Below are positions 33,113-58,237 of a stretch of DNA of 64,000 nt, piece after piece. Below the pieces are notes generated by a model. The model was not told where the DNA came from. It ran no database searches and saw only the letters and a program-made list of their open reading frames with translations. A program made the translations under genes and the position numbers. The stretch is from Lewinella sp. LCG006. GTDB taxonomy: Bacteria > Bacteroidota > Bacteroidia > Chitinophagales > Saprospiraceae. Each line of letters starts with the position of its first letter. The first letter of the stretch is position 1. The stretch spans positions 1,107,501 through 1,171,500 of the forward strand of contig NZ_CP160680.1 in assembly GCF_040784935.1 (NCBI RefSeq), given 5' to 3'.

Positions 33113-33296
33113 GGCAGAGCGGCAGGGAAAAAAATCTATAAATAGGGGTAAAATCGTCTAATTAGCCCGTTTTGGAAGGAAAATTTACGGGGAAGAGGGG
33201 TGGGATGACGGTTTTTGTCAGTTGGGGGGGCGTTGTGGCTCTGCTTAGTGGGAGGGATCGCTATTAATGGTTGGTTGTTTTTAGCGGTGCGGTTTT

Positions 33297-33661
33297 TTCC
33301 CACCTCCGTCACTGCGTGACACCTCTGCCCGAGCGGAGGATAGGGTTTGCCGCTGGGTCAGTCTATGTCCTCTGCTCGGTAGGGGTGGCCGCAGGCCGGG
33401 GGTGTCAGTTGTTGCTACTAGGGAAACTGTTTCGTTTTGGCGAGTTTTTTCCCACCTCCGTCACTGTGTGACACCTCCGCCCGAGCGGAGGATAGGGTTT
33501 GCCGCTGGGTCAGTCTCTGTCCCCTGCTCAGCGGGGGTGGCCGCAGGCCGGGGGTGTCAGTTGTTGCTACTAGGGAAACTGTTTCGTTTAGGCGAGTATT
33601 TTGACCACCTCCGTCACTGCGTGACACCTCTGCCCGGGCGGAGGATAGGGTTTGCCGCTGG
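33297..33661 (-). repeat. 152-bp palindromic tandem repeat, array A (about 2.4 units)
   Basis: The same unit as in arrays B-D but on the opposite strand. The anchor word CTGTTTCG recurs at 33427 and 33579, a period of 152. Each unit has GTCACTGCGTGAC-type and CCTCCGCCCGGGCGGAGG-type palindromes, GGCCGCAGGCC, and CCCCTGCTCAGCGGGG. It lies in the 784-bp gap between the divergent receptor (minus) and a DUF6134-like gene (plus). Long open frames across it are by-products of a period close to 153. Confidence 0.9.
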
Positions 33662-33817
33662 GGATGGATTAGGTTTTGAGGGCATTGCGAACCACGCCAA
33701 CACAGAAACGGGGCTCAATGAGATGGTGTCCTTCTTAATTTATATCGTTTAAATACCACTACCAATGCGTTTAAGGTTTTATCTTTAGTTTATTCCATTG
33801 AATTAGTCTCCCTTCAT

Positions 33818-34916: not shown

Positions 34917-34950
34917 TCACTTGTTTTATGACAAAAAGAAATTAGTAAAT

Positions 34951-36411: not shown

Positions 36412-36540
36412 CGAGATATTTGACCTTCGTGGTCATGAAAAGGAAGGGCTATAGAAAGGTAAATATCACCGTAAGGTAAATTGACCCAGCAGAACAAGTC
36501 TAGTTTCCTGATAAACAACATCTTAACCTTGTTAAAATAA

Positions 36541-36576
36541 AAATGCCGTTCCTGATTTCTCAGGAACGGCATTTTT
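36541..36576. terminator. bidirectional terminator between convergent genes
   Basis: A perfect hairpin with arms AAATGCCGTTCCTGA and TCAGGAACGGCATTT and loop TTTC, flanked by A and T runs on both sides. It lies between the lectin-domain gene (ends 36411) and the minus-strand T9SS gene (ends 36594). Confidence 0.92.
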
Positions 36577-36593
36577 ACTAGTATCCGAAGGAT

Positions 36594-37457
36594 TTAGTTC
36601 TTGACGAACTTCATCACCTTGTTGCCTTCTTCTGCGTAAACAGTAAGGAAGTAAGTACCAGCAGCTAGATTTCTAACATCTATCTCTTTGCTTGCTTTAC
36701 CGCTCATTACGGTCTGACCCAAAAGGGTTGAAACCTGGTAAGACTGTACCTGTGCATCACTCTTGATGAACAAAGTTTCTGTAGCAGGATTAGGGAATAC
36801 ACTCATTGCAATTTGCAGCGTGTTCAGGTCATTAACGGAGGAAGGACCAACACCAATGGTTACGGTACCTAAGGCCGCCTCATTAGTAGGATTGGCATTT
36901 CTACCTGTTACACTGAAGCCGTACTGGATGAGTAAGCCTGCAGGCAATTCTGCTGCAGTTGCACTAACGGAAAAATCACCACTTGCAGGAAGCGGAAATA
37001 CTTTTCCACCACCCAATGCATCAGCGTAGCCGTTGTTTGGATCAAGTGCTTTGATGAAAAATTTAACCTCGTATGCATCATCCAAGGTGTAACCTTGTAC
37101 GGTACCTGAAAACGTAAGATCTTGACCGTTGAAGGTAGCACCTGGCTCTACAAAAGTTAAGGCTTCCATTGTTTTGGCGCCTTCACCCGTAGTTTGGTTA
37201 ACCCAAAAAGCATCACCAGCGTTTTCAGCGTAAGTGTTAAAATTGGGTTGTAAGGTCAATGTATTGTTGGCCGTATTGAGCGTCGATTTCAATGCAGGAA
37301 CCTCCCAGCTAGAGCCAAAGTTGTAAGATCCATCGAGATTAAAGACATTCATGTAGCCAATCCAGTTGGAGCTTGCATTGAACTCTACATTATTCTGCCC
37401 CACTAGCAGCGGTAGCGATAAAAGGCAAAAAATGATACTTGTAAAAACAGTTTTCAT
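36594..37457 (-). CDS. secreted beta-sandwich protein with T9SS type A tail
   Basis: The 287-residue product has a signal peptide (FTSIIFCLLSLPLLVGQ), then a domain with FNASSNWIGYMNVFNLDGSYNFGSSWEVPALK and WVNQTTGEGAKTMEA, which recurs in Bacteroidota surface proteins of unknown role. The end, SVFPNPATETLFIKS...NLAAGTYFLTVYAEEGNKVMKFVKN, is a type A sorting tail. It is transcribed alone. Ligand or activity is not known; a carbohydrate-binding role is possible. Confidence 0.85.
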   Translation of the reverse strand: MKTVFTSIIFCLLSLPLLVGQNNVEFNASSNWIGYMNVFNLDGSYNFGSSWEVPALKSTLNTANNTLTLQPNFNTYAENAGDAFWVNQTTGEGAKTMEALTFVEPGATFNGQDLTFSGTVQGYTLDDAYEVKFFIKALDPNNGYADALGGGKVFPLPASGDFSVSATAAELPAGLLIQYGFSVTGRNANPTNEAALGTVTIGVGPSSVNDLNTLQIAMSVFPNPATETLFIKSDAQVQSYQVSTLLGQTVMSGKASKEIDVRNLAAGTYFLTVYAEEGNKVMKFVKN

Positions 37458-37634
37458 AATACACTATTTTGTTGTTAAAAAAGAGGGTGTAATATAAGGT
37501 AAATTCTGCTATTTTGAGACAATACGGTTTGCCGTTTTCTACAATGTCTGACGGCTTACTTTCTGCAATTTAGCTATCTTAGGGCTTGCCTGGTAGGGGA
37601 ACCTCAGCCCTTTTACCTTAACCTCCAAGTCGTT

Positions 37635-39176
37635 ATGGAACTTATTGATTTTTGGTTGTTACTAAATACCAAACACTTAAAGTGGGTTGTTTGTTGGTTT
37701 TTATTGTTTCCGTCCTTACTTCATGCGCAACTGAACCTGCCACCAGCGAGTGCGCCCGCAAGATTGGAAACACAGATAGGACTGACTCATTTTACACTGA
37801 GTTATCACCGACCGGGAGTGAAAGGGCGTGTGATTTTCGGGGAACTTATTCCTTACGGAGAAGTCTGGCGTACGGGCGCTAACGAAGCAACACTGCTGCA
37901 TTTTGATCGAGAAATCAGTATCCTGGACCAACAGCTACCAGCTGGCACCTATGCGCTTTATACCATTCCCCGCCAAGATGCCGAATGGACGTTGATCCTA
38001 AGTAGCGATACGACTTTGTGGGGTGCCCGCGGCTATGATCCGGCAAAAGATGTGTTGAGGGTAGATTTGCCTACGAAAACCCTACCTGAGCGTATAGAAA
38101 CGATGGAGTTTCGGTGGATGAACATCACGCCCGCCAGCGCAGAACTGACCTTGGAGTGGGAGCACACCCGGCTGGCGATTCCGGTGTTGCTGGCGACTCA
38201 TGACCAAGTGAAAAAACTAATTAACCAGTCTTTTGGTGCCAGTACCACTGGCCCGGAATACTACGCCGCCGCCCGCTATTACCTCGACAATAACCTGGAC
38301 TTGCAGCAAGCCAAAACCTGGATGGACCGCCGCCAGGAGCTGGATGGCGATCAGTTTGGCGTCATGCGTTACCATGCCATCATCGAGCGCAAATTGGGTA
38401 ACCTCTCCGCCGCCGAGAAGATCATGGCGCGTTCGCTGGAGCTGGCCGAGGCGGCTCCCAACCCTCACTACGTGCGCATGAATACCCAAACCCTCCGCGA
38501 GTGGAACAAAGACCTGGCACCCTATTTCAGTGGCTCCCAACTGCTGGAAAAAGCCATCGCCTACCACGACCCCCAGGCGCAGTGGGGCGTACAGCCGCTC
38601 ACGTTGAAGCTCTACGAATCGCGCCCCGGAGGCAGCTACCGCCGCTCGGAGGTCACCATGGATGAAGGACAGGAGGTGTTTAAACTCGCACAAATCAGAG
38701 GTCGCGACGAAACCTATCGGGAATACAATGCTGCCGGCTGCACCTTTAGCCTCAATGGACGTACGACCGACTTCACCCCCGAAGAACTTCGCCAGCACCG
38801 CTTGAGCTGCGAGGCGGGCAAGGTCTACCGCAACTACTATACCTACCTCTGGGGCCTACCCATGAAACTGCGCGACCCCGGTACCATCATCGACGACAAC
38901 GTCCACCGCGTAGACTTCTTCGGTCAGGAGCTGCTGGAAATGAAAGTCACCTATCAAGAAGAAGTAGGCGGTGATACCTGGTACTTCTACTTCCACCCGG
39001 AAACCTACGCCCTAAGCGGCTACCGCTTCTACCACGACGAAGCCGCCAACGACGGTGAGTACATCCTGCTAGCGGACGAAGCCCAAATAGGGCCATTCCG
39101 GATTCCCGCCAAACGGCATTGGTACACCCACGGCGATCGGCAGTATTTGGGGAGTGATGAGGTGGTGGAGGAGTGA
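37635..39176 (+). CDS. DUF2911 protein with C-terminal DUF6503-like domain
   Basis: The 513-residue product has a signal peptide (VVCWFLLFPSLLHAQ). Residues 33-195 form the DUF2911 domain (FTLSYHRPGVKGRVIFGELIPYGEVWRTGANEATLLHFDREI, LPAGTYALYTIPR). A TPR-like helical linker (about 215-275) leads to a C-terminal sandwich (about 300-513, WGVQPLTLKLYESRPGG..., FHPETYALSGYRFYHDE) resembling DUF6503. The fusion of two usually separate secreted domains is unusual. Function unknown. It converges on the GH16 gene. Confidence 0.8.
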   Translation: MELIDFWLLLNTKHLKWVVCWFLLFPSLLHAQLNLPPASAPARLETQIGLTHFTLSYHRPGVKGRVIFGELIPYGEVWRTGANEATLLHFDREISILDQQLPAGTYALYTIPRQDAEWTLILSSDTTLWGARGYDPAKDVLRVDLPTKTLPERIETMEFRWMNITPASAELTLEWEHTRLAIPVLLATHDQVKKLINQSFGASTTGPEYYAAARYYLDNNLDLQQAKTWMDRRQELDGDQFGVMRYHAIIERKLGNLSAAEKIMARSLELAEAAPNPHYVRMNTQTLREWNKDLAPYFSGSQLLEKAIAYHDPQAQWGVQPLTLKLYESRPGGSYRRSEVTMDEGQEVFKLAQIRGRDETYREYNAAGCTFSLNGRTTDFTPEELRQHRLSCEAGKVYRNYYTYLWGLPMKLRDPGTIIDDNVHRVDFFGQELLEMKVTYQEEVGGDTWYFYFHPETYALSGYRFYHDEAANDGEYILLADEAQIGPFRIPAKRHWYTHGDRQYLGSDEVVEE

Positions 39177-39387
39177 GTGTTTGTAGAGGGATACGGTTTG
39201 CTTTACTTATCTGGGGTAGAGGTGTCCAATCTGGCTGGTTTGATTTGTCGTACATTCACGGCCCAACCCAACAGCATCGCATTTTTGACGCTTAATCGAA
39301 CCTCCTGGAATCGCAACCTTACCATGACTAATCGTGGTGTGCAAATATTCCTGCCACCACCAGAGTCCTAAAGGGGTGATATATACA

Positions 39388-39412
39388 GGGGTAGGAATAT
39401 GAGTCCTACCCC
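39388..39412. terminator. stem-loop between convergent DUF2911 and GH16 genes
   Basis: Nine-base arms GGGGTAGGA (39388-39396) and TCCTACCCC (39404-39412) with a 7-base loop. No strong T run follows, so termination is plausible but not certain. Nothing else is seen in this 278-bp gap. Confidence 0.5.
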
Positions 39413-39454
39413 AGCACAAGGTGGGTTATATCTACGTGAGAGCCTCCGCACCCC

Positions 39455-41059
39455 CTACATCTTCATCACCTTACGCGTCACCTGCTCACCGCCCAGCTCA
39501 AACACCAGCACATAGGCTCCTGCTGGGTAGGCCGACCAATCCAGCGTCAGCGAGGTCGTATCCTGGCGGAATTGCTGTAGTAGCACCTGCCCGTTAGCGG
39601 CATACACCTTCACTTGTGCGCCCACCAGTGTGGCAGGAATAGTGATGTTCAGCGGCCCTTCCACCGGATTGGGGAAGACCTCGATCTGCTCCAATTCTTC
39701 GGTAGACGAGGTAGTGCTGGTACCTTCCTGGTATACCCTGATGTAATCAAGCACCATGGGGCTTTGCGTAAAGCCCGCCGCTACTTCGCCCTGGATCGCT
39801 ACGTTGAGTAGTAGGTACTGGTCCGCATCAAAGGGCCAGGTAGCCGAGTTGAGGCTACTGGGGGCATAGGTGTAGTATACCGCTCCGTCAATGCTGAAGC
39901 GCATTTCTTCCGGGGTCCATTCCAAGGCGTACACGTGGAAGGTATTAGAAACATCCTCTGCCAGGGTGCCGCCGTAATTTTGCGTAGCACCGGAAGAGGA
40001 AGGCGTGTGCAGGGCACTTTGGACAAAATTTTGGTTGTAACCCCAGTGTTCCATGATGTCAATTTCACCGCAGGCAGGCCAGCCGGTGGTGCCGTGGGTG
40101 TTGGCCCAGTAGCCGCCGGGTTCGGTAACATTTTTACCCAGCATCCAAATGGCGGGCCAGGTGCCCAACCCGAAAGGTAATTTTGCTCGGGCCTCTACCC
40201 GCCCGTAGGTAAAAGCAAATTTGGAATTGAGCCGCGCCGAAGTGTAAGCTTTGGTATGCCCCTGGTCCGTGAAGTTTTCCCGCTTGGCTACGATGTGCAG
40301 GAAGCCATCCTCTACATAGGAGTTGTCCAGGCGGTTGGTGTAGTGTTGTAGCTCGTTGTTGTACCAACTGAAACCATTAGGCAGTTGGGTCTGGTGGTGC
40401 CATTTGGTGGGATCCACGGGGCCATTGCCGTCAAATTCATCGGCCCAGACCAGTTGGTTGTAGATGGAGCCTTCGCCGGTATCAACACCGTAAATAAAGT
40501 CATCGATGTAGGCCGTAACGAGATCATTGTTGTTCTCGCCATTTACCTGAAGCACCACCCGGTTGAAGTCGCTGCGTGTAACCGGGTGCGGCGAACCTTC
40601 GTTGAGGTTTTGGTGGGGGTCACTGGCGAAATTAAAGATCACCTCTTGCCATTGATCCAGTACGATGGGCTTGATAACTTCACTTTGGGTCGACCATGGT
40701 TCCGCCAGATCGCCGTCCTGTAGCTTGAGCGATACCTGGTTGGGCTGGTTACCGGTGATGCTACTTGAAGGAACGTAGATTTTTAAGGCAAAAGAAGGTT
40801 TTGCTGCCAGGTCGAAAGTCCCGTTAATATCAAAACGGATATTGGCATACTGTCCGCCACCGTCCTGGTACTGTAAAACCGTCGACGAGGGATTGATCCC
40901 TTGCTGAAAAGGATTAGCAAAGGCATTGTCCATGCCACAGTCGTCGCCCGTCCAGTTGGTGATGGTGCCATTGCCCTCAAAGTCATCTTCGACGGTCTGC
41001 GAAAATCCAAGTAGAGGAACAAAAAAAAGAAGGCCTAGTAGAAGGTTTAACTTATGCAC
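39455..41059 (-). CDS. secreted GH16 beta-glucanase (laminarinase-like) with T9SS tail
   Basis: The 534-residue product starts at a GTG (41059) directly before the signal peptide HKLNLLLGLLFFVPLLGFSQ. Residues 25-190 are a CBM-like sandwich; residues 205-440 are the GH16 jelly roll with LVWADEFDGNGPVDPTKW, GRVEARAKLPFGLGTWPAIWMLG and the catalytic ACGEIDIMEHWGYN (E-I-D-I-M-E). The tail (EVFPNPVEGPLNITIP) is a type A T9SS signal. Motifs fit beta-1,3- or beta-1,3/1,4-glucanases. It is an orphan, not tied to the uronate locus. Confidence 0.93.
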   Translation of the reverse strand: MHKLNLLLGLLFFVPLLGFSQTVEDDFEGNGTITNWTGDDCGMDNAFANPFQQGINPSSTVLQYQDGGGQYANIRFDINGTFDLAAKPSFALKIYVPSSSITGNQPNQVSLKLQDGDLAEPWSTQSEVIKPIVLDQWQEVIFNFASDPHQNLNEGSPHPVTRSDFNRVVLQVNGENNNDLVTAYIDDFIYGVDTGEGSIYNQLVWADEFDGNGPVDPTKWHHQTQLPNGFSWYNNELQHYTNRLDNSYVEDGFLHIVAKRENFTDQGHTKAYTSARLNSKFAFTYGRVEARAKLPFGLGTWPAIWMLGKNVTEPGGYWANTHGTTGWPACGEIDIMEHWGYNQNFVQSALHTPSSSGATQNYGGTLAEDVSNTFHVYALEWTPEEMRFSIDGAVYYTYAPSSLNSATWPFDADQYLLLNVAIQGEVAAGFTQSPMVLDYIRVYQEGTSTTSSTEELEQIEVFPNPVEGPLNITIPATLVGAQVKVYAANGQVLLQQFRQDTTSLTLDWSAYPAGAYVLVFELGGEQVTRKVMKM

Positions 41060-41217
41060 GATAGTAAAGCTTTTGAAAGTTGAGTAAAACCATAAAGGTA
41101 GGACTAAATAGGCCTTCCTGCTAACCCTTATTTTGCAATGACTAAGTCATTAAAAGGACATATAACCCAAACTTCTGGTATTCGATGATTCATTTGGGAC
41201 CATGCCATCCGTTGTGT

Positions 41218-41577
41218 TACAGATTCATCCTCCGCCCGGGCGCAGGTGTCACGCAGTGAAGGAGTTGGGAGAGTCACTGGTCTAAACGAAACAGCTTGCC
41301 TAGTAGCGACATCTAACACCCCCGGCCTGCGGCCACCCCCGCTGAGCAGGGGACAGAGATTGACCCAGCGGCAAACCATATCCTCCGCCCGGGCGGAGGT
41401 GTCACGCAGTGAAGGAGTTGGGAGAGTCACTGGTCTAAACGAAACAGCTTGCCTAGTAGCGACACCTAGCACCCCCGACCTGCGGTCACCCCCGCGGAGC
41501 AGGGGACATAGACTGACCCAGCGGCAAACCATATCCTCCGCCCAGGCGGAGGTGTCACGCAGTGACGGAGGTGGGAA
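41218..41577 (+). repeat. 152-bp palindromic tandem repeat, array B (about 2.3 units)
   Basis: The anchor CGAAACAGCTTGCCTAGTAG occurs at 41287 and 41440, a period of 153. Units hold CCTCCGCCCGGGCGGAGG, GTCACGCAGTGA(C), GGCCTGCGGCC and CCCCGC..GAGCAGGGG. Array B has its own variant GAAGGAGTTGGGAGAGTCACTGG in both units. It lies in the 590-bp gap between GH16 (start) and a membrane protein gene (end). A CCATCAACCA-type low-complexity run follows at about 41582-41617. Confidence 0.9.
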
Positions 41578-41649
41578 GTGACCATCAAACCATCAACCAA
41601 CAACCATCAACCATTTTAAAGTCGGATGTATTCACAGCACCCCGCACCA

Positions 41650-42654
41650 TCAGCTCCCCTCATAAACCGGCCCCGCATTTCGGATATTGATGATCTTCTT
41701 GAGCATGTCAAACCAGAAAGGGGCACCTAGGGAGATCGCAAAAGTGGTGAGCAACAGGCCAATGAGTTTGTTGAACAGGACAGGAACATTACTTTTTACA
41801 GTGCTCCACTCCGCTTTTGTCCAACCCAGCCCCAGCGGGGAATTGGCTCCGTTGACCATCACTACCAGCGAATCCACTTGTGCCAATAGGCGCTCATTGT
41901 GTAGCAGCAATAAACTGTCGTAGCGGGCGGTATCCGTTTGCTGAGCGGCGGAGTCAAGGCTTTGTTGGATGTCATTGATCTGTTGGTTGAAGCCATCGTA
42001 GCGTTGATCCACAAAATCCTGCGCCAGTCCAATGATGGCCTGCTCTTGGGTAGAACCCGCCGCCACTGCCGACATCTTTTGATAGATCGACAAGGTATCT
42101 GCATTCATGTACATGGCCACCAGTAAGCCCACGACCATGATGATTTTGTGGGTATAGGATTTGTACCAGCCAGATACGCGACTCATTACCTGATCGTACC
42201 ATTGTTCTAGTCGAGTTCTGAATTTGGTGAGGTCATTGCCTGTTTCGGCCAGACAGTCCAATAAGAATTTTTTCAGCTTCCCGTCTTCCATGGCATTGAT
42301 GGTGGCGGTGAGTTGCTTCACGTCACTACCATCTAATACATGCAATAAAATACTAGAAAAAGTAGCCGCACTCATGTAAGAAGGATGGGCCATGTGGTTG
42401 GTCGACTGTTTGTTTTTTTCCTGCACCATGTCTCCGTAAGAGGGGTGGCTTTGGAATTTTTCCAGTATCGACTTGTCCAGCTCTAGCGCGCCTTCTGTGG
42501 TTTTCTCGTTGGTAAGCATCTGGTCGATGGCGTGCCCAAAGTGTTTGCTACGCATGGAAAACCAGCTGGCCAGTGCTTCCTGAATGGCCGAAACCATCAA
42601 GCTGAGAATAAGATACACGAGGATGAGGCCAATGGCCGTGGTGATGATAGACAT
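41650..42654 (-). CDS. membrane protein of unknown function
   Basis: The 334-residue product has an N-terminal helix (residues 4-24, AIGLILVYLILSLMVSAIQ), a soluble helical part, a central membrane helix (about 169-186, IIMVVGLLVAMYMN), a coiled segment and a C-terminal helix (about 298-316, LIGLLLTTFAISLGAPFWF). I do not recognise a named family. It is a single gene ending 72 bp from array B. No enzyme motif is visible. Confidence 0.75.
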   Translation of the reverse strand: MSIITTAIGLILVYLILSLMVSAIQEALASWFSMRSKHFGHAIDQMLTNEKTTEGALELDKSILEKFQSHPSYGDMVQEKNKQSTNHMAHPSYMSAATFSSILLHVLDGSDVKQLTATINAMEDGKLKKFLLDCLAETGNDLTKFRTRLEQWYDQVMSRVSGWYKSYTHKIIMVVGLLVAMYMNADTLSIYQKMSAVAAGSTQEQAIIGLAQDFVDQRYDGFNQQINDIQQSLDSAAQQTDTARYDSLLLLHNERLLAQVDSLVVMVNGANSPLGLGWTKAEWSTVKSNVPVLFNKLIGLLLTTFAISLGAPFWFDMLKKIINIRNAGPVYEGS

Positions 42655-42871
42655 TGAATAGGGGTGTTTGGTAAATCTTATTAAAGATAGACAATGAATG
42701 GAAACTACTCAAATTAGGTTGTCCGTAGAGCGTAGCTAAAACACCGCAAGAACCCTTATCTTGGTCTTTTATTGATTGCGCCCATTCTTGATTAGTGACG
42801 GATTAAACCTGCCTACCTGCGGTAAACGGGCACTTATTTCCGTCTTTTTACTTAGGTAAAGCAGTGAGCAG

Positions 42872-45800
42872 ATGTACACAAAGTGGTTGTTAATTTTTGG
42901 TTGGGTATTTTTTCTTTTCACCTGTTCCGATGCACAAACGGTGTCCTTCCAGTATTTGTCCAAAAAGGAAGGCCTCTCCCAGACGTCCGTTTTTGCCATA
43001 GTACAGGACGATGCGGGCTTTATGTGGTTTGGTACCAGAGACGGCCTCAATAAATTTGATGGCTATGAGTTCAAAATCTACCGCAATGACACGACACCTA
43101 ACAGCTTAGTCGCCAACGATATTCGCTCGCTCTATGCCGATACGCTGCACCATCAGCTTTGGGTAGGTACCATTTCCGGACTCAGCTGTTATGACCCTTC
43201 CACCGATAAGTTTTCCAATTACTACCATCTTGAAGACGATCCTTCTACGCTAACCGATAATGTGATCAGGCATATCTATCGCGACCGCAAAGGCCGTTTA
43301 TGGGTTGGTACTTCTGTAGGGTTGAACCTTTTTGACGAAAAGACCAATGCTTTTCGGCGCTTTTATTTTTCCAATAATGCTTCTCCTCAATTGGGGAGCA
43401 ACGACATTGAAACCATCCTCGAAGACAGCCAGGGGCAGTTGATCTTTGGCACCGCCAGCGGCTTGTATTTTTTGCCGGCAACGGATAACAACTACGCCTT
43501 TCAGCGATTAGCCCTGCCTCCGTCTTCCTGGCCTACGAATATTCACATCAAAAGCATCCTGGAAGATGCGGCGGGCAACCTCTGGCTCGGGGCCCTTAAA
43601 GATGGGGTCGCTTACTGGAATCGGGCTACCCAAACCCTGACCATTTACCGCAACGAGAAAAACATTGCCAATGTATTAAGTAACAACAATATCCGAGCCA
43701 TGTGCCTCGATGGCAATGGCGACTTATGGGTAGGTACCTTCGATGGTCTGAATGTATTGAAAAAGGGAACCAACGAATTTATCCGCTACAAGAAAGCTAC
43801 TGCGGGCAATGACGGACTGTCCGATAACTCTATCCGTTCCCTTTTTATCGATCAGCGAGGCAGCTTGTGGGTAGGAGCCTACTACGGAGGTATCAACCAT
43901 TTTGATGAAAACTACAATAGGTTCACCAATTTTCATTACGCTCCTTCCGGCGATGGCCTGGGTGCCGATGTGGTCAGCTCCTTTGCGGAAACGCCCAAGG
44001 GGAACCTATGGATCGGTACCGAAGGAGGTGGCCTGAATTTCTACGACCGCAGTACGGGGCAATTCAAACAATACCCGGCGCAGCTACAGCAAGGTAATGC
44101 GCTGAGTGGCAACAATGTAAAGCAGTTGCTGCTTGATGGGGAACATCTTTGGATTGGTACCTTTCAGGCAGGCCTTAACCTGCTGGATATAAAAACCGAA
44201 ACTTTTCACCATTACCAACACGATCCACTAGTCGAAAACACCTTGGCCCACGATAATGTCTATGGCCTGAAAAGAAAGGGGCATTACCTGTGGATACTCA
44301 CCTATGGCGGAGGATTGGACATCCTGGATTTGCAGCAGGAGCGTTTTCATAACTTTCGGCATGATGACCTGGATAGCAACAGCCTGAGTTCTGACCTCGC
44401 CAGGGTTTTTCTGGAAACCCACGGCGGGCAACTCTGGATTGGTACCGAAAGAGGGGTGAATAAAGTGATCTTGGGTGAAGATGGTTTTCCCTCCCGTTTT
44501 GAGGCCTTTCTGACCAATGAGAAAATTTATGCCCTTCAGGAAGACCGTAAGCAAAACATCTGGGTGGGCACTATTAGTAGCGGTATTTATCGCTTTGCGC
44601 CAACAACGGGCCAGCTCGATCATTTTACGGTAGCTGATGGGCTGCCGGGCAATACCATCTTTGGTATCCTGGAAGCCGCCAATGGGGAATTATGGATAAG
44701 CACCAACAACGGCCTTTCCCGGTACAATCCACAGCAAGGGTCATTTACCAACTACAATTTTTCCAATGGTTTGGAAAACCTGGAATACAATTTCAACGCC
44801 TATTACAAAACCCGCGCCGGCGAACTGCTCTTTGGAGGGATCGATGGCTTCACCTTGTTTGATCCAGAAAAAATTCTGGCCAACGAGTTCATCCCGCCCC
44901 TCGTTTTCACCCAATTGAAGAAAAACAACCGGGAGGTCATCATCGGCGAAGAGGAGAGTAGCTTGCAGCGGAGCATCAACGAAACCCAGAGCATCACTTT
45001 CAAATACAACGAAGCCAATTTCTCCCTCAGTTTTGCTGCCCTGGATTACTTTAGCCCCGAAAACAATCACTATGCCTACAAGCTGGAAGGCCTGGACCGA
45101 GAGTGGAAATACAGTGTGGGAAAAACCGAAGCTTCCTACACCATCCAGCGGGAGGGTACTTATGTTTTCCGCCTCCGTGGAGGCAACAGCGATGGCGTCT
45201 GGAATCCCAAAGAACGCACCCTCGAAATCATTGTCTTACCGCCACCCTGGCGCAGCTGGTGGGCTTACTTGATTTATCTGGCGCTGGCCAGTGGCCTGGC
45301 TTTTGGACTGATTCGTTTCGTACGCTTACGGCACAAATTACAGTTGGAGCAAATTGCCAAAGAGCAGCAGGAGGAATTGACGGAGATGAAATTACGCTTC
45401 TTCACCAACATCACCCACGAATTTCGTACCCCGCTGACGCTCATCCTCGGCCCACTGCAAGAGCTCTTGAGCAGAGAGAAGCACCCGGAGCCCGTTTTTC
45501 AACAACTGTCACTCATTGAACGCAATGCCCAACGCCTGCTCAATTTGGTCAACCAGGTACTGAATTTCCGAAAACTGGTGACCGATCACGAGACGATGAA
45601 GATCGTCCAAAGTGATTTTGTCAACTTTCTTGGTGAGCTGTTTTTGCCTTTTCAGGAAACGGCCAAGTTGAAAAACATCACCTATACGTTTGTCGCCGAA
45701 ACACCGGCGGTCAATCTCTGGTTTGATCAGGATAAGTTGGAAAAAGTGTTCTTCAACCTGCTGTCCAATGCCTTCAAATTTACACCACCAGGAGGCAAAA

Positions 45801-46969
45801 TAACCCTACTCCTTACCGAAAGTGAGGAGCACGTGGAGGTAAGGGTAAAAGACAATGGAGTTGGGGTGAGCCCGGAGTTGGAAGACCAGATTTTCAAGCG
45901 GTTCTACGAAAAATCCAGCATCACCCATTCCAATATCAAAAGCACGGGGATTGGGCTGGCTATTTCCAAGCAGATGGTAGAGCTTCACCACGGAAAAATC
46001 TTCGTTGAACCCACACGAGACAACAACGATGAAAAAGCCAAAGGAGCCACTTTCGTGGTACAATTGCTCAAAGGCCGTAGCCACTTTTCGGAGGAAGAAA
46101 TTTTTACCGATTACTCCGACCCGGAGGAAACGGCAGATTATGAACCCATGCTATCCCCCCCTCCTACCTTGGAAGTAGCGCCAGATCAGGGAGCAGCACC
46201 AACGGTCCCTTCTTCAGAGGCACCTCTTCTGCTTATCGTAGAGGACAATCCAGAAGTGCGCAATTATATTGAGCAAATCTTCGCGGGGCAGTACCGTCTG
46301 ATCAGCGCAGAAAATGGCCGCGAAGGATTGGTGATGGCCAAAAAGCACCTGCCCGATCTGGTTATCAGTGATGTGATGATGCCCGAAATGGATGGTATCA
46401 CCTTTTGCGGCAAGCTGAAAACCGATTTGGAGATCAGCCATATTCCCGTGATATTGCTGACGGCACGAACGGCCTCCCTCTTCAAAATCGAAGGCCTGCG
46501 GATTGGCGCCGATGATTACATTACCAAGCCTTTTCACCCCGAAGAGTTGGCCTTGCGGGTACGCAACACCATCCAGTCGCGGCAGGAAGCCCGAGATAAA
46601 TTTGCCCGCGTCCTCAATTTTGACCCCAAGGAAATCAGCATCACCTCGGCCGATGAACATTTTCTGGAAACAGCGCTCCAGACGGTTGAACAGCACATGG
46701 GCAACTACGATTTTAATGTGATCCAGTTTGCCGAAGAATTGGCGGTAAGCCGCCCCCTTTTATTCACAAAGCTAAAAGCACTCACCGGCCAAACGCCCAA
46801 CAACTTCATCAAAACCATTCGGCTGAAGCGCGCCGCGCAGCTGCTGAAGACACAAAAGCTCAACGTCTCGGAAGTCGCCTATCAAGTCGGGTTCAAAGAC
46901 CCCAAATATTTCCGAAAGTGTTTTCGCGAGAAATTTGACGAAGTACCCTCCGCTTTCGGCAAGGATTAA
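42872..46969 (+). CDS. hybrid two-component sensor kinase/response regulator (HTCS)
   Basis: This 1365-residue one-protein phosphorelay has an export signal, then about 14 two-component propeller repeats (GFMWFGTRDGLNKFDG, GRLWVGTSVGLN...) filling residues 25-690. A Y_Y_Y domain (about 725-790), a membrane helix (about 798-815) and a HisKA with H849 (NITHEFRTPLTLILG) follow. The ATPase has NLLSNAFKFT, DNGVGVS and STGIGLAIS; the receiver has D1167 (VISDVMMPEMDG); the AraC HTH is C-terminal (about 1255-1365). HTCS proteins sense periplasmic oligosaccharides and activate nearby utilisation loci. Its ligand is unknown; GH16 and the uronate locus are candidate targets. Confidence 0.95.
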   Translation: MYTKWLLIFGWVFFLFTCSDAQTVSFQYLSKKEGLSQTSVFAIVQDDAGFMWFGTRDGLNKFDGYEFKIYRNDTTPNSLVANDIRSLYADTLHHQLWVGTISGLSCYDPSTDKFSNYYHLEDDPSTLTDNVIRHIYRDRKGRLWVGTSVGLNLFDEKTNAFRRFYFSNNASPQLGSNDIETILEDSQGQLIFGTASGLYFLPATDNNYAFQRLALPPSSWPTNIHIKSILEDAAGNLWLGALKDGVAYWNRATQTLTIYRNEKNIANVLSNNNIRAMCLDGNGDLWVGTFDGLNVLKKGTNEFIRYKKATAGNDGLSDNSIRSLFIDQRGSLWVGAYYGGINHFDENYNRFTNFHYAPSGDGLGADVVSSFAETPKGNLWIGTEGGGLNFYDRSTGQFKQYPAQLQQGNALSGNNVKQLLLDGEHLWIGTFQAGLNLLDIKTETFHHYQHDPLVENTLAHDNVYGLKRKGHYLWILTYGGGLDILDLQQERFHNFRHDDLDSNSLSSDLARVFLETHGGQLWIGTERGVNKVILGEDGFPSRFEAFLTNEKIYALQEDRKQNIWVGTISSGIYRFAPTTGQLDHFTVADGLPGNTIFGILEAANGELWISTNNGLSRYNPQQGSFTNYNFSNGLENLEYNFNAYYKTRAGELLFGGIDGFTLFDPEKILANEFIPPLVFTQLKKNNREVIIGEEESSLQRSINETQSITFKYNEANFSLSFAALDYFSPENNHYAYKLEGLDREWKYSVGKTEASYTIQREGTYVFRLRGGNSDGVWNPKERTLEIIVLPPPWRSWWAYLIYLALASGLAFGLIRFVRLRHKLQLEQIAKEQQEELTEMKLRFFTNITHEFRTPLTLILGPLQELLSREKHPEPVFQQLSLIERNAQRLLNLVNQVLNFRKLVTDHETMKIVQSDFVNFLGELFLPFQETAKLKNITYTFVAETPAVNLWFDQDKLEKVFFNLLSNAFKFTPPGGKITLLLTESEEHVEVRVKDNGVGVSPELEDQIFKRFYEKSSITHSNIKSTGIGLAISKQMVELHHGKIFVEPTRDNNDEKAKGATFVVQLLKGRSHFSEEEIFTDYSDPEETADYEPMLSPPPTLEVAPDQGAAPTVPSSEAPLLLIVEDNPEVRNYIEQIFAGQYRLISAENGREGLVMAKKHLPDLVISDVMMPEMDGITFCGKLKTDLEISHIPVILLTARTASLFKIEGLRIGADDYITKPFHPEELALRVRNTIQSRQEARDKFARVLNFDPKEISITSADEHFLETALQTVEQHMGNYDFNVIQFAEELAVSRPLLFTKLKALTGQTPNNFIKTIRLKRAAQLLKTQKLNVSEVAYQVGFKDPKYFRKCFREKFDEVPSAFGKD

Positions 46970-46997: not shown

Positions 46998-47921
46998 CCC
47001 ATATCCTCCGCCCGGGCACAGGTGTCACACAGTGACGGAGATGGGAAAATACTCGCCCAAACGAAACAGCTTGCCTAGTAGCTACAACTAACACCCCCGG
47101 CCTGCGGCCACCCCCGCTGAGCAGGGGACAGGGACTGACCCAGCGGCAAACTCTATCCTCCGCTCGGGCGGAGGTGTCACACAGTGATGGAGGTGGGAAA
47201 ATACTCGCCTAAACGAAACAGCTTGCCTAGTAGTGACACCTAACACCCCCGGCCTGCGGCCACCCCCGCTGAGCAGGGGACAGAGACTGACCCAGCGGCA
47301 AACCATATCCTCCGTCCGGGCGCAGGTGTCACACAGTGACGGAGGTGGGGGAAAACCTCGCCAAGACGAAACAGCTTGCCTAGTAGCGACACCTGACACC
47401 CCCGGCCTGCGGCCACCCCCGCTGAGCGGGGGACAGGGACTGACCCAGCGGCAAACTCTATCCTCCGCTCGGGCGGAGGTGTCACACAGTGACGGAGGTG
47501 GGGAAAACACTCGCCTAAACGAAACAGCTTGCCTAGTAGCGACATCTAACACCCCCGACCTGCGGCCACCCCCGCTGAGCAGGGGACAGAGACTGACCCA
47601 GCGGCAAACTCTATCCTCCGCTCGGGCGGAGGTGTCACACAGTGATGGAGGTGGGAAAATACTCGCCTAAACGAAACAGCTTGCCTAGTAGTGACACCTA
47701 ACACCCCCGGCCTGCGGCCACCCCCGCTGAGCAGGGGACAGAGACTGACCCAGCGGCAAACCATATCCTCCGTCCGGGCGCAGGTGTCACACAGTGACGG
47801 AGGTGGGGGAAACACTCGCCTAAACGAAACAGCTTCCCTAGTAGCTACAACTAACACCCCCGACCTGCGGCCACCCCCGCTAAGCAGGGGACAGGGACTG
47901 ACCTAATGGCAAACCATATCC
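46998..47921 (+). repeat. 152-153-bp palindromic tandem repeat, array C (six units)
   Basis: Anchor words CGAAACAGCTT(G/C)CCTAGTAG start at 47062, 47214, 47367, 47520, 47672 and 47825 (periods 152-153). Every unit carries several palindromes (CCTCCGCTCGGGCGGAGG, GTCACACAGTGAC, GGCCTGCGGCC, CCCCGC/GCAGGGG). Bases of about 47134-47354 and 47592-47812 look identical, so a block of three units (458 bp) has been duplicated. It begins about 28 bp after the HTCS stop. All six frames are open for long stretches because the period is near 51 codons. Confidence 0.93.
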
Positions 47922-48036
47922 AAATACAAGCAGAGTGTCCCGAGGACAGTGAAAAAACTCACCTCAAACTTGTGTTTCTTCCAAATAGTCTCTAATTTCC
48001 TGATTCTTGGCTTTAGCTCTCAAAAATTACGCGCTC

Positions 48037-48477
48037 ATGAAAAACAAAAAAACTCCTCACTTCGGGGACCACTTTAGTTATAACAAGAGTCTCAAAGATT
48101 ACGCCAATTACAACCGCAAGCACCTCACCAAATCGGCAGCAGCACTTTGGAAATACGCGCTACGCAATCGGAAGATGCTCGGTTATCAATTCCGGCGAGA
48201 ACGTCCCATCGGGCCATACATCGCCGATTTTGCTTGTTTACCTATTGGTTTGGTCATCGAAGTTGATGGTATTACACATCAAAACGAGCTACAAAAAGCT
48301 TATGACAACAGAAGAGATGTGTTACTAGCCAATCTTGGGTTCACAACACTTCGCTTCTCCAGCTATAGCGTTCTAAATGAGATGGAACGCGTAAAAAGTC
48401 AAATCGCTACCTGGATCGAAGAGCACGCAACAGTTCCCCCACCTGAACCAAGGAAGCGAGGAATAAAAAAGAAATGA
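48037..48477 (+). CDS. DUF559 endonuclease-domain protein (PD-(D/E)XK, Vsr-like)
   Basis: About 146 residues from the ATG at 48037; a TTG ten codons earlier is less likely. The core is SAAALWKYALRNRKMLGYQFRRERPIG, then YIADFACLPIGLVIEVDG with the D and E-V-D of a PD-(D/E)XK active site, then RRDVLLANLGFTTLRFSS. Family relatives include very-short-patch-repair-like nucleases, usually of unknown biology. The Pro/Arg/Lys-rich C-terminus (VPPPEPRKRGIKKK) may bind nucleic acid. The gene is embedded between repeat arrays C and D. The 115 bp before it contains a decayed copy of the repeat (GAGTGTCCC...GACAGTG). Confidence 0.85.
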   Translation: MKNKKTPHFGDHFSYNKSLKDYANYNRKHLTKSAAALWKYALRNRKMLGYQFRRERPIGPYIADFACLPIGLVIEVDGITHQNELQKAYDNRRDVLLANLGFTTLRFSSYSVLNEMERVKSQIATWIEEHATVPPPEPRKRGIKKK

Positions 48478-48482
48478 TTTGC

Positions 48483-48851
48483 CTGACCCATTGGCAAACC
48501 ATATCCTCCACCCGAGCGGAGGTGTCACACAGTGACGGAGGTGGGGAAAAACCTCGCCCAAACGAAACAGCTTGCCTAGTAGCGACAACTGACACCCCCG
48601 ACCTGCGGTCACCCCCGCTGAGCAGGGGACATAGACTGCCCCAACAGCAAACCATATCCTCCGCCCAGGCGCAGGTGTCACGCAGTGACGGAGGTGGGAA
48701 AATACTCGCCTAAACGAAACAGCTTGCCTAGTAGTGACACCTAACACCCCCGGCCTGCGGCCACCCCAGCTGAGCAGGGGACAGAGACTGACCCAGCGGT
48801 AAACCCTATCCTCCGCCCGGGCGGAGGTGTCACGCAGTGACGGAGATGGGG
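48483..48851 (+). repeat. 152-bp palindromic tandem repeat, array D (about 2.4 units)
   Basis: Anchors at 48563 and 48715 (period 152), same strand as array C. It resumes with CTGACCCATTGGCAAACC (48483-48500), matching CTGACCTAATGGCAAACC at the end of array C (47898-47915), so the DUF559 gene with its flanks (about 561 bp) interrupts what would be one array. It ends 62 bp before the molybdopterin oxidoreductase gene. Confidence 0.9.
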
Positions 48852-48912
48852 AAAATACCATCCACCATCAGCCATTTTTCCTTAGCTTAGCTGCTCATCA
48901 ATATCGAGCCTC

Positions 48913-54470: not shown

Positions 54471-54483
54471 GTCGGATCCCGAG

Positions 54484-54636
54484 GAAGTCGGAAGTGGGAA
54501 ATCGGAAGTCGGAAGTGTTTTTTATCCGCTAGTAGCGAACTAATACTATGTTTTTAACGTAGATCATCGAACCTAAACTTTACGACTCACGCGTATCCCC
54601 TTTAATTCCGACTTCCGACTTTCAATCTCCGACTTC
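54484..54636. repeat. inverted repeat built of TCGGAAG words
   Basis: The left arm (54484-54515) runs as GAAGTCGGA followed by AATCGGAAGTCGGAAGT. The right arm (54606-54636) is its imperfect complement (TTCCGACTTCCGACTTTC, then TCCGACTTC). It fills the 174-bp gap between the convergent SCP2 and TauE/SafE genes and may act as a long-stem terminator or belong to a simple-repeat family. Confidence 0.6.
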
Positions 54637-56303: not shown

Positions 56304-57794
56304 TTACAGCAGTCCTAGTACCAAATACCCTAATGCCGCCAAGCCTCCCGCTACCAGCGCATAGGGCAGTTGCGTTTTTACATGGTCCACATGATCGGTG
56401 GCTGAAGCCATCGACGAGAGGATTGTTGTATCGCTGATGGGCGAACAGTGATCGCCAAAAACACCTCCACCCAGTGCCGCCGCAATAACGATATGGGGAT
56501 CAGCCCCCAGCGATTGGCCCATGCCCACTGCGATGGGGATCATGATGCCAAAAGTACCCCAGGAGGAACCTATCGAAAAGGCCACAAAACAACTGACCAC
56601 AAAGATGAGGAAAGGGGCCAAAGAGGGTGACAACCAGCTTTGGGTAATCTCCGCTACATATTGTCCGGTACCAAGGTGCTCTTTACAGAGCGAACCAATC
56701 GCAAAGGCCAGCAGCATGAGCAGCGAAAGCGGAATCATGCCTGCGATGCCTTTCAGCACCAGGTCCACCATTTCCCGGATGCCCATAATGCCCTGTGCTT
56801 TGTAAAACGCCATGCTCACCAGCAAGGCTCCCACTACCGCGGTAAGCACCGCCGTAGAACCCGACCCCTTACCGATAGCTAGTAACAGGTGATCCCAGCC
56901 ACTGGTTGGCGCAGCCGTTGCCGCTTCGACCCAACCTGTGTAGGCAAGCATCACAGGCATCAGCACTACCATCACCAGAATGGGCACCACCATATTGTAG
57001 GCCTTGGGCGTTACGCCCGGAGCTACTTCTTGCTCCGTGAGTTCGTCGGTCACCATCGGTTGTGCATCGTCCCATAGCAGCTTGCCCTCCTGGGTACGGA
57101 TCTCTGCCTTCTTCATCGGCCCAAAGTCCTTCTTCCACAAAATAATTACTGGCACAATGAACAAAGCCAGGATAGGGTAGAAATTCCAGCCGATGCTGCG
57201 GATCATCGTCGCAAAAGGATCAGAAAACCCCTGTGCCGCCAATAAACTCATGATAAACGCTCCCCAACCATTGAACGGAATAAGAATGCTACTAGGCGCA
57301 GAGCTAGAGTCGGCAATGTAGGCCAGTTTCTCGCGTGAAATGCCCAGTTTATCAAACAGCGGTCGATAAAGCGCCCCTACCGTAAGCACCGAGATACTTG
57401 ATTCCACAAAAATAAGCGCCCCGGTAAACCAGGCCAAAAGGCTCACAATGACTTTGCTGTGCTGATCGCTCCTACCCTCGTAGGCTTGCAGTTTGCGTTG
57501 CACCAGGGCAATAAAGCCCGCTACCCCACCCGACCGTTGCATAAAAATGATGAGCCCGCCCACCAGCGCACAAAACATAATCGTCCGCGTATTGCCCGCA
57601 TCCTTGAACACATCGACCAGCGCTTGCAGTGTATCAAACAAGCCGTAGAGCGGGTTCCCGCCGTTGAGCATGGTCCAACCCAGGAAAATACCAAAGATCA
57701 GCGAGATAAACACCTGCTTGGTGAGGATGGCCAGCACAATGGCAATGAGTGGCGGCAGCAGGCTCCAAAAGCCTTGGTGGAGTGTTTCTTGCAT
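56304..57794 (-). CDS. NhaC-type Na+/H+ antiporter family protein
   Basis: About 496 residues from the ATG at 57794 (MQETLHQGFWSLLPPLIAIVLAI). An in-frame extension to 57890 reads through the low-complexity ACCATCAACC run and is rejected. There are 11-12 membrane helices. Family motifs are LIFGIFLGWTMLNGG, FVESSISVLTVGALYRPLFD, DSSSAPSSILIPFNGWGAF, FSIGSSWGTFGIMIPIAVGMG and GGGVFGDHCSPISDTTILSSMAS. NhaC/MleN-type carriers exchange sodium for protons, sometimes with malate/lactate. It has no operon partners. Confidence 0.93.
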   Translation of the reverse strand: MQETLHQGFWSLLPPLIAIVLAILTKQVFISLIFGIFLGWTMLNGGNPLYGLFDTLQALVDVFKDAGNTRTIMFCALVGGLIIFMQRSGGVAGFIALVQRKLQAYEGRSDQHSKVIVSLLAWFTGALIFVESSISVLTVGALYRPLFDKLGISREKLAYIADSSSAPSSILIPFNGWGAFIMSLLAAQGFSDPFATMIRSIGWNFYPILALFIVPVIILWKKDFGPMKKAEIRTQEGKLLWDDAQPMVTDELTEQEVAPGVTPKAYNMVVPILVMVVLMPVMLAYTGWVEAATAAPTSGWDHLLLAIGKGSGSTAVLTAVVGALLVSMAFYKAQGIMGIREMVDLVLKGIAGMIPLSLLMLLAFAIGSLCKEHLGTGQYVAEITQSWLSPSLAPFLIFVVSCFVAFSIGSSWGTFGIMIPIAVGMGQSLGADPHIVIAAALGGGVFGDHCSPISDTTILSSMASATDHVDHVKTQLPYALVAGGLAALGYLVLGLL

Positions 57795-58237
57795 GGTTGA
57801 TGGTTGGTGGTTTGATGGTTGGTGGTTGGTGGTTTTTGAACATCTTTTGTGTAATCCTATTTCAGGATAAGACAATAGAACATTCAACAATCAACGTTCA
57901 ACCATCAACCTTATTTACATATACGTAATCCAATTTTGGCTGGAATATAAGGATATATAGTGAGGTTTAGCGTTTGTCCAGGAATTTTGAGGCTAACGCG
58001 TCCCCTAAAAAACAACTATGATAGTGGCTATCGTTAGTAAGCTAATCTACGTTGAATCAGCGAAGTACGAAAAACGGTTTTTGTAACATTTGCATTTCTT
58101 TTAAAAAGAACATAGATTGAAATCAAGAACCAGCATTCTGTCGGTGGAATAATCTCTGAAACCAGCCGCGCTCAAATAGGAAAGTAAGACCCTGCGCCCG
58201 ACTGGGTTAATGAAGGCAAATCAAATTTTTATTTATC
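57795..58237. other. 443-bp gap with CCATCAACC-type low-complexity repeats
   Basis: Directly upstream of the antiporter gene, 57793-57834 is a run of GGTTGGTGGT/GATGGTTGG words, complementary to CCAACCATCAACC; a matching CAACCATCAACC occurs at 57898-57910, giving an inverted relation. Similar runs occur at 41582-41617 and near 48855. A small stem GATAGTGGCTATC lies near 58022. No gene is seen. Confidence 0.5.

Follow-up and report, generated by a model that had tools for sequence, protein, structure and literature searches.

The gene of a DUF559 nuclease that interrupts an array of 152-bp tandem repeats in Lewinella sp. LCG006 probably forms, together with the hairpin ends surrounding it, a small selfish mobile element of roughly 0.5-0.7 kb, a reading to which a probability of about 0.65 is attached. 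The gene lies in a stretch of 64,000 nucleotides (contig NZ_CP160680.1, positions 1,107,501 to 1,171,500; hereafter the window) of a genome represented by a single contig of 7.5 Mb (G000). Comparison across genomes indicates that gene and ends recur as a unit, that filled and unfilled alleles as well as gene-less end pairs exist, and that the cassettes are found between genes, within operons or in frame inside housekeeping genes. Judged from their sequence, the ends, with a C-run and a hairpin on the left and a hairpin and a G-run on the right, are of the intrastrand-triplex/BoxC motif type.

In its general form the element is a nuclease gene framed by hairpin ends in mostly inverted arrangement, and the 152-bp array elaborates on this locally. 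The first-pass annotation of the window, which had singled out the gene and its repeats as a candidate for an undescribed element, covered the local case only and is supported overall; the general form falls outside the known kinds with which it was compared.

Results

The interrupted array

Four arrays of the window, A to D (Table 1), are all built from one kind of 152/153-bp unit according to Tandem Repeats Finder. Arrays C and D had been described as parts of one array split by about 561 bp, and the calls agree: the gap between them measures 561 bp (47922-48482) and contains the DUF559 open frame. Each array unit contains a left-type end and a right-type end, the latter consisting of two hairpins followed by GGAGGTGGG; beyond the copy beside the gene, the left-type end occurs seven more times within arrays C and D. 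The sequence CTGACC(C/T)AxTGGCAAACC, reported as common to both junctions, is part of a directly duplicated 24-mer, CTGACC(C/T)A(A/T)TGGCAAACCATATCC, while other units of array C have CTGACCCAGCGGCAAAC... at that place. The 5' flank of the gene had been called a decayed repeat, and it does align by eye with the intact right-hand end found in G002, a genome of the same genus.

The unit had also been characterised as palindrome-rich. This is correct for short local hairpins and fails for the unit as a whole, which at 153 nt shows no folding advantage over shuffled controls (z -0.85 and -1.73); the array palindromes are thus short local hairpins and no single large structure. Three other readings of the locus were rejected. 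The unit as a structured RNA or DNA is opposed by the same folding result and by Rfam, which gave no family at gathering threshold in the window. Proteins encoded by the array frames were dismissed by inspection, and no single frame runs through the array because unit spacing alternates between 152 and 153. A defence system was discarded, PADLOC having returned weak partial matches only.

The encoded nuclease

A single gene fits into the 561-bp insert. Its product matches PF04480 (DUF559) with an E-value of 1.3e-27 and 96.2 bits, against a Pfam cut-off of 20.6, with weak matches to two further families of the PD-(D/E)XK type and none to a Y1 transposase family. Conservation across 38 relatives is complete for D64, E75 and D77 and nearly complete for H81. 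The AlphaFold model of the window protein (pLDDT 90.4) was matched by Foldseek to the Neisseria endonuclease-like structure 3hrl (E 1.2e-6), to the homing endonuclease I-Bth0305I (3r3p; E 7.7e-4, TM-score 0.79 by target) and, more weakly, to Vsr (1vsr; prob 0.93, E 0.1). The protein is predicted to be a single-domain PD-(D/E)XK nuclease related to Vsr and I-Bth0305I, and the predicted fold agrees with its earlier designation as Vsr-like.

Hairpins around DUF559 genes

A family search recovered 103 DUF559 places in 67 of 150 genomes. The family set comprises 66 of the 68 places of at least 65 bits (the weaker places were left out, as were G018:C133 and G137:C105); 64 of the 66 loci entered the flank-match test and 62 the hairpin test, the remainder having short flanks. 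A second set, from named genomes, holds the best 80 of 580 relatives, 72 of them with flanks long enough, and a third holds 12 of 39 plasmid records. The family and named sets share at least two loci (L046 is L136; L070 and L174 share the gene). A hairpin was counted when C-rich/G-rich and at most 400 nt from the gene, with controls placed 1.5 kb away; intergenic-only controls were added because those placements are mostly coding.

Hairpins on both sides were found at 34/62 family loci against 0/64 controls, at 43/72 named loci against 1/124, and at 8/12 plasmid loci against 1/24. The first-pass annotation had proposed comparing the association of DUF559 genes and repeats with other places, and in the first two sets the outcome strongly favours an association. 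A hairpin on either side was present at 54/62 family, 58/72 named and 12/12 plasmid loci (controls 4/64, 18/124 and 4/24). Counted per side against intergenic-only controls, the frequencies are 89/128 versus 4/45 in the family and 107/152 versus 14/89 in the named genomes.

The two flanks of a gene tend to match each other in inverted orientation, exceeding the 95th percentile of controls at 75% of the 64 family loci and 47 of the 72 named loci (p 5e-15 and 8e-18, respectively); matches in direct orientation are frequent too (p 3e-7 for the family and the named loci alike). The triplex type, namely a hairpin with an extra G-run, was registered at 38/66 family loci versus 3/66 controls, 51/80 versus 8/132 in named genomes and 10/12 versus 3/24 in plasmids, and in both orientations at 15 family, 27 named and 7 plasmid loci, with 1, 3 and 0 among the respective controls. 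Long inverted ends surround DUF559 in two Deinococcus and one Pseudanabaena plasmid. DUF559 genes between such ends were seen in Bacteroidota, Pseudomonadota, cyanobacteria, Deinococcus and Viridilinea, the last of which we take to belong to Chloroflexota.

Moreover, protein identity correlates with hairpin similarity (r 0.21, 0/2000 permutations; within GC classes 0/1000). This test used 110 of 146 loci, after the exclusion of 5 with stops in the domain, 25 without a hairpin and 6 with near-identical proteins. In the clade of the window protein (12 rows listed, motif [QA]FRR[EQ]R), seven members have CCCCCGC..GCGGGGG, and the window's own CCCCCGCTGAGCAGGGG is close. Taken together, the surveys show that the association of DUF559 genes with hairpins is general.

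Cassettes in frame within host genes

In-frame DUF559 insertions make up 6 of the 66 family loci. In the named set they amount to 29 of 80 loci, counted as frames of 220 aa or longer, a fraction biased toward the query type because the best 80 of 580 relatives were kept; L177 and L180 are without a clear host. Pfam places DUF559 inside, or terminally in, MnmE, IleRS, MetH, LeuRS, chorismate synthase (aroC) and adenosylhomocysteinase (ahcY), a class I synthetase (ValRS by eye), an Lhr-type helicase and an Eco57I-type restriction-modification protein and, with weaker support, an N6-methylase and an MG2-domain protein. In nine Sphingobacteriaceae (Pedobacter/Mucilaginibacter; Table 1) it stands in frame upstream of a HisF-like sequence, the host being recognised by eye, and these nine loci cluster in the tree, interspersed with a few free-standing copies. 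Other DUF559 genes are positioned between operon partners, paaD/paaZ and sufB/sufC.

The host reading frames run on through the inserts, and because the hairpins are in coding sequence, the translated insert ends resemble SPSPKERG and PLPxGEGxGG. Among the 18 host proteins scanned, none showed an intein domain at an E-value of 1e-5 or below.

Filled and unfilled alleles could be compared at two genes. In mnmE, the insert is present in G000, G001 and G002 and missing from G003, all of the same genus, as well as from seven other genomes; for the remaining two of the 13 genomes searched, no mnmE match was listed. In leuS, an insert occupies the site GEGPLANIxEW / RETxTMPGYAG in G320 and in G270, which belongs to another family, the other 28 of 30 loci being empty there. 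The same place is also filled in L161, L172 and L205, while L179 has there the same sequence as G320. In ileS, L104 and L204 share a site within a few codons, by eye. Ilyomonas limi and Marinilabilia salmonicolor are examples of species that carry a LeuRS or IleRS insert.

Between G000 and G002, fourfold degenerate sites of mnmE are identical at 48/62 positions in the insert, compared with 59/149 before it and 21/44 after it (80/193 for the host; p 9e-7), and the identity shifts close to the insert ends. On this sequence comparison, the mnmE insert appears younger than its host gene. Its 3' hairpin shows a compensatory change, with CCCCTCCTC-GAGGAGGGG in G000 and CCCCTTCTC-GAGAAGGGG in G001.

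Two further loci deserve mention in their own right. The MnmE of G004 (L114) has a different in-frame tandem repeat, GKWEVGS, in the same loop. At L091 (G068:C2:20209-22342), two DUF559 copies lie 1.8 kb apart, identical over the domain and both carrying a TAG in frame; they look like a dead element that was duplicated.

Related genomes and gene-less ends

The first-pass annotation had suggested searching for the unit in related genomes. The exact 152-bp unit is present in 2 of the 60 genomes searched, G000 and G002, and both have an orthologous DUF559 gene beside it; within G000, the gene is found at one of several unit-bearing sites only, and the converse association, of units with the gene, is thus weak. 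The G002 orthologue is 78% identical to the window protein (dN/dS 0.10) and lies between units of the same family, and the sequences indicate a nuclease-fold protein that is conserved and under purifying selection. The unit was not found in G001 or G003; for DUF559, G003 gave no match and G001 only its mnmE copy among the matches listed.

The G002 gene occupies the place of array B in the window, between the genes at 39455-41059 and 41650-42654, approximately 6 kb from array C/D, which holds the gene in G000. Either the gene changed array or ancestral copies were lost differently. Furthermore, a 12-kb segment (window 34935-46845, G002:C13:153666-167507) is inverted between the two species. Arrays A and C, in opposite orientation, flank its edges in the window, as recombination between the two arrays would lead one to expect; inspection by eye of the G002 stretches read showed no unit at either breakpoint.

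Ends also occur without the gene. In G000, gene-less units form arrays A and B, a stretch at 3052779-3053498 and a single unit at 4716816, with short relics elsewhere. In G023, a 169-bp unit flanks the DUF559 gene twice, while contig 539 holds an 84-bp pair of these ends without a gene, contig 521 a second pair, partly decayed, and contig 607 a lone end. As a separate observation, the single G000 unit (L030, G000:C1:4716816-4716948) is about 0.2 kb upstream of a 555-aa open reading frame which by eye is transposase-like.

Escherichia coli ycjD and the BoxC/TM repeats

In E. coli K-12, ycjD (1351407-1351760) is a DUF559 gene, and about 170 bp separate its stop codon from copy no. 9 of TM_ECO, at 1351239-1351204 (Table 1 of PMC4666352 and the genome sequence). 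According to the part of PMC4666352 available, TM_ECO comprises 23 BoxC/intrastrand-triplex copies at 18 sites, with five inverted pairs that always combine type A and type B; the motif occurs in more than 260 genomes, and its origin is called unclear. We estimate that roughly 1% of the genes of E. coli are adjacent to one of the 18 sites. The ycjD region is patchy, being covered to at least 80% in 3362 of 5426 E. coli genomes. No clean empty site for ycjD was encountered, the allele of SMS-3-5 being an efflux cluster beside fabI, nor was there a clean gap at the BoxC site between tkt and ypfG in the alleles read. No link between DUF559 and BoxC/TM-type repeats was found in the open-licence literature.

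With regard to individual strains, ycjD of ETEC6 is broken by IS1, and in the fabI-sapF interval of SMS-3-5 and ERL06-2442 (L266-L270) a TetR/RND efflux cluster is next to fabI instead.

Discussion

Proposed mechanism

In the reading favoured here, the nuclease would likely nick or cut the hairpin/triplex ends, or resident repeats that resemble them, after which repair templated by a copy at another site would insert or convert the element. Gene-less end pairs would arise through gene loss and, in the window, unequal recombination would have amplified them into the 152-bp tandem arrays, in one of which the gene lies.

Several observations weigh against this account. Hairpins within 400 nt are missing at 8/62 family and 14/72 named loci, so that not every DUF559 gene sits in such an element, and the correlation between protein and hairpin is weaker in the family alone (r 0.13, 8/2000 permutations). 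Genome-wide, the inverted end of G150 was found only as the pair at the gene, a weak test because the query, from the 3' side of the gene, included no more than 32 bases of that end. Neither a target-site duplication nor an exact empty site could be resolved, the empty alleles of mnmE and leuS differing by a few codons. None of the 28 empty leuS sites holds a gene-less hairpin insert, which does not favour a route in which a hairpin arrives first and the nuclease homes to it later. The leuS and ileS inserts are placed apart in trees, but one origin is not rejected (approximately unbiased test, p 0.08-0.16), and recurrent insertion is accordingly not claimed as proven. The fourfold-site excess recurs weakly in the other two genome pairs (p 0.047 and 0.075), so composition may account for part of it. 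Finally, in E. coli, ycjD has a TM motif on its 3' side only, with a different, AT-richer inverted repeat by eye on the 5' side, and in TM pair nos. 1+2 the third runs point inward (Table 1 of PMC4666352), the reverse of the order around the mnmE insert. Both orders of the third run occur within a tandem array.

Alternative explanations

The alternative that survives best, although we consider it unlikely, is hitchhiking: GC-rich hairpin/triplex repeats would be recombination hot spots that collect passengers, and DUF559 genes would survive there without the repeats being their substrate. PMC4666352 reports more frequent rearrangement at TM/BoxC loci than at control sites, two window arrays stand at the edges of the segment inverted relative to G002, and only one unit-bearing site of G000 has the gene. 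Passive collection is opposed by the recurrence of DUF559 between such ends in five groups, from Bacteroidota to Viridilinea, by its presence inside leuS, where the 28 relatives read have no earlier repeat, and by the covariation of nuclease and hairpin similarity.

Less probable still is a HUH transposase of the IS200/IS605 or RAYT type that moves the element in trans via its hairpins, with DUF559 as cargo or helper. The hairpin ends do recall REP/RAYT and TIRYT elements (PMC3733652, as far as the accessible text describes them), and repeated segments of Legionella with a transposase and DUF559 are described as recombining in the available part of PMC12308824. Against it, eight annotated plasmid stretches list no transposase, in gene tables that are incomplete, and the excerpt of PMC4666352 reports no transposase or integrase remnants around TM_ECO sites.

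That DUF559 is an ordinary host nuclease of very-short-patch-type mismatch repair, with hairpins serving as its terminators or regulators, is very improbable: the Caulobacter DUF559 protein VsrA is indeed a proposed mismatch endonuclease on which the SOS response of a methylase mutant depends (PMC12907096, from the text at hand), but the hairpins lie in translated sequence of the leuS, ileS, mnmE and metH inserts, where a terminator would break the host gene, and the genes are patchy both in the family (67/150 genomes) and, as ycjD, in E. coli.

A wider proposal

The selfish-element reading invites an extension, which is put forward tentatively and at slightly less than even odds, namely that DUF559 nucleases provide the mobility function so far missing for the BoxC/PIT/TM triplex repeats and for related repeats across bacteria. 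A stand-alone Vsr-like nuclease would recognise hairpin/triplex ends, copy itself as well as gene-less end pairs, and colonise housekeeping genes in frame as a tolerated, unspliced insert. If true, this would supply an enzyme and a mechanism for BoxC/PIT/TM and for the GC-rich hairpin repeats of Bacteroidota, of origin unclear according to the part of PMC4666352 available, and the question of origin would become testable in E. coli K-12 through the single gene ycjD; the link may explain puzzling E. coli repeats known since the 1990s. The range of mobile elements would also gain a kind built on a Vsr-like nuclease rather than on a HUH, DDE or serine/tyrosine enzyme, and it would become apparent how a nuclease can reside within essential genes in the absence of splicing. 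For annotation, DUF559 in LeuRS, IleRS, MnmE and MetH would have to be regarded as an invader and not as an enzyme domain.

Features of the window

The coordinates of the arrays, the gene and its ends are collected in Table 1. The hairpin ends in the window depart from the strict E. coli BoxC/TM consensus because the second loop is widened into a small hairpin. Heptamer tandem repeats are also present in the window at 41581-41614 (ACCATCA), 54483-54516 (GGAAGTC) and 57793-57835 (ATGGTTG); the first of these adjoins array B, and a similar stretch adjoins the G002 copy.

Table 1. Position of the arrays, the DUF559 gene and its ends in the window, with in-frame loci elsewhere
Feature	Position	Strand	Description
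Array A	33292..33662	-	gene-less units, inverted orientation
Array B	41227..41576	+	gene-less units
Array C	46999..47921	+	6.1 units of 153 bp, 91% match (Tandem Repeats Finder)
Left-type end beside gene	47855..47893	+	CACCCCC run, small hairpin, large hairpin CCCCGCTAAGCAGGGG
24-mer direct duplication, left junction of gene-bearing insert	47898..47921	+	
Decayed right-type end, 5' of gene	47922..47963	+	aligned by eye with intact copy upstream of G002 orthologue
DUF559 (PF04480) nuclease gene	48037..48477	+	146 aa, ATG start; TTG start at 48007 possible
Array D	48483..48858	+	2.5 units of 152 bp (Tandem Repeats Finder)
24-mer direct duplication, right junction of gene-bearing insert	48483..48506	+	
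Right-type end, 3' of gene	48505..48545	+	hairpin CCTCCACCCGAGCGGAGG, hairpin GTCACACAGTGAC, then GGAGGTGGG
G000 mnmE with in-frame DUF559 insert	L035 1875-3770; G000:C1 ~1824377-1826269	-	631-aa MnmE
HisF-linked loci	L146, L151, L153, L158, L164, L167, L171, L189, L198		

Comparison with known systems

The likeness to REP/RAYT or homing-type partnerships, raised in the first-pass annotation, holds for the gene-less palindromic ends and for the homing-nuclease fold; it does not extend to a Y1/HUH enzyme or to an intron or intein. In REP/RAYT (REPtron) and TIRYT/TIRtron, a nuclease gene is likewise flanked by palindromic or inverted repeats, which are also dispersed as gene-less singles and inverted pairs (PMC3733652, in its accessible portion). 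Their enzymes are HUH tyrosine transposases, whereas here the nuclease is an unrelated PD-(D/E)XK protein, and REP ends are GTAG-tagged, whereas those found here are of triplex-hairpin design.

The BoxC/PIT/TM_ECO repeats have the same motif design as the ends described here, that is, a C-rich stem, a G-rich stem and a second G-rich run. Unlike the DUF559-bearing element, BoxC/TM_ECO are described as repeats without a mobility gene nearby (PMC4666352, available text). DUF559, YcjD and VsrA are one protein family, which the literature, in the portions available, treats as repair, restriction-type or homing nucleases and not as parts of an element.

With the I-Bth0305I-type (EDxHD) homing endonucleases, the window protein shares the predicted fold, and the cassettes share insertion in conserved genes and, in mnmE, an apparently younger insert. 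Vsr-like (EDxHD) homing endonucleases are known from introns or inteins; here, no splicing element was seen and the cassette continues the host frame. Rickettsia palindromic elements are palindromic DNA inserted in frame in protein genes, as are the cassettes, but to our knowledge they carry no nuclease gene. With respect to classical insertion sequences, inverted ends are present around the gene, no known transposase was found and no target-site duplication was resolved.

The element is thus not of the REP/RAYT kind because it has no HUH enzyme, not an intron or intein homing endonuclease because no splicing element is seen, and it shows no resolved target duplication by which it could be classed as a classical insertion sequence. 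It would work like a REPtron or a homing nuclease while belonging to neither, and its kind is rated as new.

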